Below the pieces are notes generated by a model. That model was not told the origin of the DNA, ran no database searches, and worked only from the letters and a program-made list of their open reading frames with translations. Below, one piece after another: positions 9,570 to 32,362 of a stretch of DNA of 64,000 nucleotides. The number at the start of each line of letters is the position of its first letter. The first letter of the stretch is position 1. Where the stretch lies: positions 1,054,001 through 1,118,000 of the forward strand of contig NZ_JAPPWA010000002.1 of assembly GCF_029815055.1 (NCBI RefSeq), written 5' to 3'. This DNA is from Ignatzschineria sp. RMDPL8A. GTDB lineage: Bacteria; Pseudomonadota; Gammaproteobacteria; Cardiobacteriales; Wohlfahrtiimonadaceae. Both the position numbers and the translations under genes were made by a program.

Positions 9570-9645
9570 TCATTCTTAGTTATTTTGGGTTAACGCACGA
9601 TTCTTTAAGGGATCAGCCAGAAAATTAATTTGGTCAAAGCGTTAA

Positions 9646-9806
9646 CTATCCTCGTTAGGTGAGGCTCCTATATGGAGGTAAGCTACTGCCCAGAAACGTC
9701 GAGAGACACCAATGGGTCAGCAGAAACTGTCGAGCTAAGGCGGTATCTAATGTAGCCGGGAAATATCCCATGCCATATAGTGCTAAAACTTTACGAAAGA
9801 GGAGAG
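9646..9806 (+). ncRNA. M-box (ykoK) magnesium riboswitch aptamer
   Basis: The sequence carries the strongly conserved M-box blocks in order: CGTTAGGTGAGGCTCCTATA at 9653-9672, then CTACTGCCCA, GACACCAATGGGTCA, and GCCATATAGTGCTAAA with TTACGA at the 3' end. P1 can form between CCTC (9650-9653) and GAGG (9799-9802). M-box RNAs fold around several magnesium ions and turn off magnesium transport genes when the ion is plentiful. The downstream gene is MgtE, which fits exactly. Confidence 0.95.
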
Positions 9807-9868
9807 ATCACGGTGCGCGTTTGCGTGCTAATAAAAGCACCCTCCTCATTAGGACGGGTGTTTTTTTT
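9799..9868 (+). terminator. M-box expression platform: terminator with competing antiterminator
   Basis: A terminator hairpin runs from 9834-9842 (AAAGCACCC) plus TCCT to AGGA and GGGTGTTTT, ending in eight T residues (9861-9868). A mutually exclusive antiterminator can form: GAGGAG (9799-9804, the 3' side of aptamer P1) pairs with CTCCTC (9842-9847), and GGTGC (9812-9816) pairs with GCACC (9837-9841). With magnesium bound, P1 would hold GAGGAG and the terminator would form. The pairing is seen in sequence; the switch logic is inferred. Confidence 0.85.
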
Positions 9869-30154: not shown

Positions 30155-30946
30155 TTATTCAGACTCGATCTCATCGAGGGCATTGGCGATTTTATCGGTT
30201 AACCAATCGGTCGCGCGCTCAAGATCGATTTCGGTATCGATACCGGTCGGCGGGGTCTCTTCAATGCGGGCAACGGAGATAATTGATCCGCTTGCTAAGG
30301 CACGAAGCTGTTCCAGTTTTTCAATTTCTTCCAAAGGCGATGGAGGGAGGGTTGGATAGTTTTTCAAAAAGCAGCCGCGATAGCCATATACCCCGATGTG
30401 ACGGAGGAAATTATAGGCTTCAGGCACCTCACCTTCCTGTTCCATTTCACCGCGAGGGTAAGGGATCGGCGCGCGCGAGAAATAGAGCGCTTCACGGCGT
30501 TCGTTTAAGATCACTTTCACCGCGTTCGGATCATTAAATTCTTCCCACGTTGCGATACGGGTTGCGAGCGTACTCATCTGCGCTTGGGGATTGCCCTTTA
30601 ATGTATCGGCCACTTTATCGGCTAAATTGGCCGGTAAAAAAGGCTCATCGCCTTGCCAATTGACGATAATTTCTTGATCGCCGAGATGCTCTTTAAGCGC
30701 AACCTCACTTAAGCGATCCGTCCCAGTTTCATGGCTTGCTTGGGTCATCACTACCTCAGCGCCCAGGCGTTTCATATGTTTGCCGATGGCATTGTCGTCG
30801 GTTGCGATAATGATGCGCGTCGCTTTACTCTTTTGAGCGCTCATCCATGTCCATTCAATCACAGGTTTATCATGAATGGGCAATAACATTTTGTTGGGTA
30901 AGCGCGTCGATTTAAGGCGCGCAGGAATTATAATGGTATACGCCAT
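30155..30946 (-). CDS. kdsB: 3-deoxy-manno-octulosonate cytidylyltransferase
   Basis: A 263-residue KdsB, which activates Kdo as CMP-Kdo for lipid A inner-core synthesis. The nucleotide-binding start IIPARLKSTRLPNKML, then TDDNAIGKHMKRLGAEVVMTQ and NWQGDEPFLP are family signatures, with RHIGVYGYR near the C-terminal third. The longest frame begins 14 codons earlier, but the family starts at MAYTIIIPARL, so ATG 30946 is used; its ribosome binding site is weak (AAGGAA, about 11 bases away). psd follows in the same operon. Confidence 0.95.
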   Translation of the reverse strand: MAYTIIIPARLKSTRLPNKMLLPIHDKPVIEWTWMSAQKSKATRIIIATDDNAIGKHMKRLGAEVVMTQASHETGTDRLSEVALKEHLGDQEIIVNWQGDEPFLPANLADKVADTLKGNPQAQMSTLATRIATWEEFNDPNAVKVILNERREALYFSRAPIPYPRGEMEQEGEVPEAYNFLRHIGVYGYRGCFLKNYPTLPPSPLEEIEKLEQLRALASGSIISVARIEETPPTGIDTEIDLERATDWLTDKIANALDEIESE

Positions 30947-31561
30947 GGAGGAGTCATTCCTTACAATTTTAGTGAATAAAAGAAACAATTAAATTCTTTA
31001 AAAGTGAACCGTCCATTTTAGCAAAGCTAAAAGTTTTATGTGAATAATCTAATGGAGTATTGATTTGTGCATAAGAAAAAAGTCAAGTCATAAAATGGTC
31101 AAAAATTGATGGTTTTTAGCTTGACTTGTGATAAATTTTTCTTGCGTTCGATTCTTATGCGGGTTTCAAAATTTTAAAATTTTGTCAACACCCGATTTGT
31201 GCAAAACGTTGAAAACAGCGGGGTTTGAAAGATTGAGCAATTAGTAGTCATATTTTTAAAAGAGGCATTTGTACACTCTTAAACGGACTTTTTTTTACGA
31301 TATCCCAAGAGTTATCCACAGGTATTGTGAGTATCTTTGGATAACTCGATTTGTCTGCTACTCAAGTAAAAAATGCGGTAAGATTTTGAAAATCGCTTTG
31401 TTTCTTGCCGGAATAATTTTTTATCTGTTTTTTATAAACATTTCATATAAAGGCGCTTTGTTTGTGAGGAAAAAGCGAGTGATTTTAGTGGGAGATTGGG
31501 CATGAAAAGCGGAAATAGGCTATGATAATTCCATTCTTAAATCATCTAAAACGAGGCTACA
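30947..31561. other. AT-rich non-coding region with DnaA-box cluster and inverted repeats
   Basis: A 615-bp gap between divergent kdsB and mazG. It contains a perfect DnaA box TTATCCACA (31312-31320), a near match in opposite orientation TTTGGATAA (31336-31344), and TGTGAATAA (31039-31047), TGTGCATAA (31066-31074) and TGTGATAA near 31127. The 31312/31336 pair lies in a 9-bp perfect inverted repeat (GAGTTATCC/GGATAACTC). Other structures are an 18-bp palindrome CAAAATTTTAAAATTTTG near 31168-31185 and AAGTCAAG/CTTGACTT (31080-31087, 31120-31127). GATC sites are not seen. A TATGAT element at 31521 may serve mazG. Confidence 0.6.
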
Positions 31562-32362
31562 ATGGAGCAATTACTCAAGACAATCGCCGCCCTTCGCGCT
31601 AAAAATGGCTGTCCTTGGGATCGCAAACAGACGCACGAATCGTTGATTCCTTATCTGGAAGAAGAGGGTGCTGAAGTGGTGGAGGCGATTTTAGAAAAAG
31701 ACGATGCCCACCTTAAAGAGGAGCTTGGGGATCTATTATTGCAGATCTTATTGCATGCACAAATTGCCTCAGAGCGTCGCGCGTTTAATTTTATCGATGT
31801 AGCCAATACCTTAAATGAGAAGATGATTCGGCGTCATCCTCATGTCTTTGCCGGGAAAACCTACGCCAATGAAACGGAGCAAAAGGCTGATTGGAATCGC
31901 ATTAAAGCGGAAGAAGCAGAAGCAAAAGGGGAAGAAAAGGGGCTGTTAAGCTCGCTCGATCCGACATTTTCGGGCTTAAAACGTGCGTTTGATCTGCAGA
32001 AAAAAGCGGCGAGCGTTGGCTTTGATTGGGATAATTTTGACGATGTGTGGGCGAAGGTAGAAGAGGAGCAGGGTGAATTTCAGGCTGAACTTAAGAAGAG
32101 CTCTAAGGTAGATTTAGAGGCTGAATTTGGCGATCTTCTCTTTGCGCTGGTGAATGTTGCGCGTCATTTAGAGATCGATCCTGAGCGGGCGATGAGTCGC
32201 ACAAACGTTAAATTTCAGAGACGCTTTAGTTATGTTGAAGCGCAAGTAGGCGATCGTTTTGGAGAAGCGACATTAGAAGAGATGGATGCGGCGTGGAATG
32301 ATGCAAAATCCGCCGAGCTTCCAGATGGAAAGTCCATCAATCATCTACTGAAACGGTCATAA
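31562..32362 (+). CDS. mazG: Nucleoside triphosphate pyrophosphohydrolase MazG
   Basis: A 266-residue MazG (E. coli: 263), hydrolysing NTPs and dNTPs to monophosphates, important for clearing aberrant nucleotides and linked to ppGpp levels. Two MazG domains are present: the first with CPWDRKQTHESLIPYLEEEGAEVVEAI and EELGDLLLQILLHAQIA (EExxD-type metal site), the second with GFDWDNFDDVWAKVEEEQGEF and EFGDLLFALVNVARHL. ACGAGG precedes ATG 31562. xseA follows 14 bases later, an operon partner. Confidence 0.95.
   Translation: MEQLLKTIAALRAKNGCPWDRKQTHESLIPYLEEEGAEVVEAILEKDDAHLKEELGDLLLQILLHAQIASERRAFNFIDVANTLNEKMIRRHPHVFAGKTYANETEQKADWNRIKAEEAEAKGEEKGLLSSLDPTFSGLKRAFDLQKKAASVGFDWDNFDDVWAKVEEEQGEFQAELKKSSKVDLEAEFGDLLFALVNVARHLEIDPERAMSRTNVKFQRRFSYVEAQVGDRFGEATLEEMDAAWNDAKSAELPDGKSINHLLKRS

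Follow-up and report, generated by a model that had tools for sequence, protein, structure and literature searches.

The 615-bp gap between the divergent genes kdsB and mazG of this Ignatzschineria genome probably carries a DARS-like DnaA-reactivating site, arranged in the order core, Fis, IHF, a reading drawn from sequence comparison to which we give a probability of about 0.6. The site was one of several options in the original prediction, and it is supported by an exact core geometry, a spacing control, conservation and the presence of Fis and IHF motifs. The window, meaning the whole stretch of 64,000 nucleotides analyzed, corresponds to C2:1054001-1118000 in a genome of 2.18 Mb on three contigs. 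Within it, the AT-rich gap had been described as gene-free and measures 30947-31561. On one side lies kdsB (3-deoxy-manno-octulosonate cytidylyltransferase, 30155-30946, minus strand, ATG at 30946), which is the conserved neighbor of the element and is followed by psd; on the other lies mazG (nucleoside triphosphate pyrophosphohydrolase, 31562-32362, plus strand, ATG at 31562), which adjoins the element only in this genus and in one related genus, g4.

The core of the element is a triad of DnaA boxes at 31300-31334, ATATCCCAA-GAG-TTATCCACA-GGTAT-TGTGAGTAT, which the original prediction did not describe. Its plan consists of two boxes in the same direction, 3 bp apart, with an inverted box 5 bp further on; on the opposite strand this reads as box I, 5 bp, box II, 3 bp, box III. 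Box II (31312-31320, plus strand) is the perfect DnaA box TTATCCACA, present as claimed. Box III (31300-31308, plus strand) is the weak form ATATCCCAA, which relatives replace with TTATCCYCA, TTATACACA, TTATTCACA or TTATCCACA, and box I (31326-31334, minus strand) reads ATACTCACA on the minus strand. The conserved pattern also includes a Fis-consensus site, GAGCAATTAGTAGTC, at 31235-31249, 91 bp from box I, and an IHF-like site on the minus strand at 31202-31214, 124 bp from box I and one mismatch away from WATCAANNNNTTR. Further out, a CTTGACTT motif at 31120-31135 leads into a distal, degenerate DnaA box; this position, some 199 bp from box I, holds TTATTCACA in six g4 relatives. With box III as ATATCCCAA, box I as ATACTCACA and an IHF site one mismatch off, this genome is the weakest member of the family. 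Most relatives also have a CCATGC-like motif in the stretch that separates the Fis site from the triad (within 31250-31299); it is degenerate here.

Box density in the gap is far higher than chance predicts. Four R-type boxes (TTWTNCACA) were observed against 0.136 expected from Markov sequence with the gap's own composition, and 0/3000 simulations reached four. The near matches TTATTCACA at 31039, TTATGCACA at 31066 and TTATCCAAA at 31336-31344, all on the minus strand, are present, and the last forms with box II the predicted 9-bp inverted repeat, GAGTTATCC/GGATAACTC, found in this genus only. A further R-type box, TTTTGCACA at 31198 (minus strand), had been overlooked. The box placed at about 31127 is just TTTATCACA, one mismatch from TTWTNCACA; the 18-bp palindrome exists and is AT-rich, CAAAATTTTAAAATTTTG, but its ends are C and G, so that it is not made of A and T alone. 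This palindrome is not conserved in the relatives compared, and the boxes at 31039, 31066 and 31336 fall outside the conserved pattern. These features weigh little because they are not conserved beyond the genus, whose sole other representative in the comparison is a nearly identical metagenome-assembled genome (MAG). Conservation of the boxes thus holds for the triad core, but not for most of the boxes listed originally.

Within Wohlfahrtiimonadaceae, 17 elements were compared, one per genome: this genome, the close MAG, nine genomes of g4 and six of the Wohlfahrtiimonas group (g2). By MazG, the closest named relatives are the MAG (98% identity) and Wohlfahrtiimonas species (57-58%). The triad stands upstream of kdsB in 17/17 elements. 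In the nine g4 genomes, psd-kdsB diverges from mazG-xseA across a long gap with a common block of about 215 bp, of which the triad forms the right end. A sequence model of the element also matches the six g2 genomes, where it lies upstream of psd-kdsB with the aldolase gene eda on the other side. Since eda stands there in the place of mazG, mazG is not a conserved partner, and the suggested DnaA control of mazG finds no support as a conserved function.

The flanking motifs, taken in the consensus forms quoted in PMC8682772, keep their places as well. At 90-91 bp from box I, 17/17 elements have the start of the 15-bp Fis consensus GNNYANNNNNTRNNC, with varying letters between its fixed positions; at any other place it occurs in at most 3/17, and none of 20,000 column permutations reached 17/17. 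In 12/17 elements an IHF-like site, perfect in four and otherwise one mismatch off, begins at 122-124 bp from box I; the remaining five are without a match at that place. The motif TTGACTT (31120-31127 in the window), about 205 bp from box I, is common to all 17.

The geometry of the triad is itself specific. When up to three mismatches were allowed, the pattern matched at about 105 places, spread over 33 of the 40 relatives searched, whereas the reversed pattern gave 0 matches in the same 40. Widening the gap from 5 to 7 bp left 12 matches, seven of them known kdsB elements out of register and five unrelated, against the roughly 105. In 12 Mb of simulated sequence, no triad appeared at the family-search threshold. 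Among exact box pairs in 11 genomes, inverted pairs outside oriC are mostly 5 bp apart, with lesser peaks at 6 bp and at 17 bp, the latter being the distance from box III to box I; a 4-bp inverted pair recurs in oriC clusters.

Other places in the family carry related arrangements. A second conserved site at C2:865421-865785, with boxes and matches to the element model, lies between the genes for a YoaA-type DNA repair helicase and an M16-like peptidase, and it is also present in the relatives G014 (at 208 kb) and G003 (contig C9). Triads occur downstream of typA in g4 genomes (G014 C1:1713137; G003 C1:466748 and 466975; G013 C1:534003), in some of them as two copies 227-260 bp apart. In the present genome, a DnaA box pair that is almost perfectly palindromic and has the geometry of the triad adjoins pdxS at C2:346405-346451.

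The closest known counterparts are the DARS sites of E. coli. As read from MG1655, the DARS1 core is TTATCCACT-ATTCC-TGTGGATAA-CCA-TGTGTATTA and the DARS2 core TTATTCACC-TTTTC-TGTGGATAG-AGT-TGTGAAGAA, both spaced 5/3. The two cores are described as equally spaced, with box I opposite to boxes II and III (PMC5742627), and a ChIP-seq list of double boxes holds the same II-III pairs at DARS1 and DARS2 (PMC11317965). The element shares this plan of three boxes, box I opposite and gaps of 5 and 3 bp, with boxes I and III weak in this genome. It resembles DARS2, which lies upstream of mutH, in its identical core geometry, in the predicted sites for IHF and Fis beyond box III (17/17 elements for Fis, 12/17 for the IHF-like site) and in its intergenic position between oriC and the terminus. 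It differs in adjoining kdsB rather than mutH, and in the order and distances of its sites: core-Fis (85 bp)-IHF (118 bp), counted from box I on the I-to-III strand, as opposed to core-IHF (93/109)-Fis (145) in DARS2. The swap is a real difference because shifting the IHF or Fis sites by 5-10 bp is reported to lower DARS2 activity (Kasho et al., PMC4245941). With order and location both different, the element is therefore called a DARS-like variant and not a DARS2 orthologue. With DARS1, located upstream of uvrB, it shares the core geometry and a perfect box II, but DARS1 lacks both the Fis and the IHF consensus at the element's offsets and needs neither protein in vitro (PMC5742627). The E. 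coli uvrB-ybhK gap was considered as DARS1 and rejected, DARS1 being located before uvrB.

By analogy with E. coli, three ADP-DnaA protomers would bind the triad, the pair on boxes III and II lying next to each other and the third, on the inverted box I, turned toward them. The AAA+ domains at boxes I and II would then meet head to head and ADP would be released; the apo-DnaA set free could take up ATP and start replication at oriC. Bending of the flank by Fis, at some 50 bp past box III, and by IHF, roughly 20 bp farther out, would activate the site. DnaA binding with a preference for the ADP form over the ATP form, ADP release and a role in the cell cycle are thus what the E. coli model predicts for the element. 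The proteins that such a site would use are encoded in the genome: a DnaA 45% identical to that of E. coli, a Fis homologue (E 6e-16), and IHF alpha and IHF beta above curated cut-offs, along with an HU-like protein. A whole-genome search with PF00308, the DnaA domain family, matched DnaA and ZapE only; judging by this single search, a homologue of Hda may be missing.

The triad also extends far beyond the family. With up to two mismatches it occurs in 183/276 Gammaproteobacterial genomes, and the reversed pattern was absent from the same 276. Among the matches listed, 72 triads were inspected; they include relatives, so that the counts that follow are not independent events. An IHF-like site lies 122-128 bp from box I in 50 of these 72 listed triads and the Fis consensus 89-95 bp from box I in 30, while comparable control windows gave at most four. 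Of the 72 listed triads, 20 stand upstream of priA and one upstream of uvrB, and others are located by hemW (5), rpmE (4), aroE (4) and rsmA (3); other uvrB matches near triads were rejected as helicase cross-matches in priA. None of the 72 has dnaA within reach, and some class-wide triads may be parts of origins. In E. coli, the priA-rpmE gap holds no triad.

These counts hint at a class-wide module in which a distal box, IHF, Fis and the triad keep fixed offsets, Fis and IHF being swapped relative to DARS2. It would exist across much of Gammaproteobacteria and would have shifted between neighborhoods (priA, hemW-rpmE, aroE-rsmA and kdsB). E. coli DARS2 would then be a rearranged local version of it. 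We hold this extension tentatively, at a little short of an even chance. Published DARS comparisons extend through the relatives of E. coli as far as Vibrio cholerae and Shewanella (PMC8682772), and searches of the open-access literature yielded no report of such sites for Wohlfahrtiimonadaceae or of a class-wide module. Should this reading be right, dedicated DNA sites that recharge the initiator would be general in Gammaproteobacteria, and the five-part grammar of the module would let sites be recognized from sequence alone. It would also provide predictions for hundreds of species and a handle on the varying position of the sites and the varying order of Fis and IHF.

The element could instead be a DnaA-responsive promoter region, in which DnaA, Fis and IHF tune transcription of kdsB (or of mazG or eda) and so tie envelope or nucleotide metabolism to replication. 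Its invariable place upstream of kdsB within the family fits this idea, as do the 20 of 72 listed class-wide triads upstream of priA and the double boxes that DnaA binds in E. coli upstream of nrdA, nrdD, purH and polA. Since kdsB is a constant neighbor in the family and priA a frequent one outside it, the element may control kdsB transcription. However, while the internal spacing of the element is constant, kdsB lies at distances from box I that differ by 100 bp or more, and mazG anywhere between 159 and 380 bp away; outside the family, the same plan adjoins unrelated genes (priA, hemW-rpmE, aroE-rsmA). Nor would a double-box operator call for an inverted box spaced at precisely 5 bp. Box pairs separated by 2-3 bp are a general in vivo target of DnaA in E. 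coli (PMC11317965), and the II-III pair, itself a 3-bp double box like those at polA, nrdA and purH (PMC11317965), is therefore not specific to DARS; the inverted partner at 5 bp is. Those E. coli sites are defined by the double box alone, whereas the element adds the fixed inverted box and the Fis and IHF motifs. We regard the promoter reading as unlikely.

More doubtful still is a titration or datA-like site, which would only sequester DnaA or promote ATP hydrolysis. The dense boxes, the IHF-like site and the intergenic position recall datA, and in E. coli DARS and datA together make up much of DnaA titration. Yet the essential boxes of datA all point one way (PMC5742627) with an IHF site between them and no 5-bp inverted pair, whereas the conserved core here has box I inverted at a fixed 5 bp, and the good boxes number just three or four. 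With an inverted pair among the close boxes, the datA-like option of the original prediction is disfavored.

A conserved non-coding stretch with a consensus hairpin over boxes II-I might also suggest a structured small RNA gene or leader, but this is very improbable: the hairpin, which is the inverted box pair itself, has no compensatory pairs, the stretch has no Rfam match, and its variation tracks the consensus of the protein sites.

The DARS-like reading also agrees with the place of the element on the chromosome. GC skew, taken in sampled stretches of the genome, is positive along almost all of the window and beyond both its edges, so that the skew minimum proposed as a check is not here. 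In the sampled stretches, skew becomes positive near C2:61-62 kb and negative again near 1.5 Mb. Around the first switch, three intergenic gaps within about 9 kb (C2:54231-63438) hold 12 perfect DnaA boxes (5, 3 and 4), far from dnaA and rpmH, and oriC is likely this cluster at C2:54.4-63.2 kb. The element is thus intergenic, about 1.02 Mb from this switch, and the sampled terminus switch near 1.5 Mb lies beyond it. Two complete relatives behave alike, each with its skew changing sign at a box cluster of its own, 0.8 Mb from the element in one and 1.0 Mb in the other. The idea that the usual origin lies only about 31 kb away fails too: rpmH-rnpA, at the left edge of the window, adjoins a gene that we take from its sequence to be metK, and dnaA is on another contig, C1. 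Despite its DnaA boxes, AT-rich gap and palindromes, the element has a negligible chance of being the replication origin or a displaced or second one, as the skew sign changes about 1.02 Mb away at another box cluster.

Two minor observations concern replication and the window at large. Unless one of the contigs has a different place or orientation, the sampled skew implies unequal replication arms of about 1.44 Mb and about 0.7 Mb; a search of this genome for an E. coli-type dif pattern gave no match. Finally, an M-box magnesium riboswitch is located at 9644-9808 of the window (Rfam RF00380, 139 bits).
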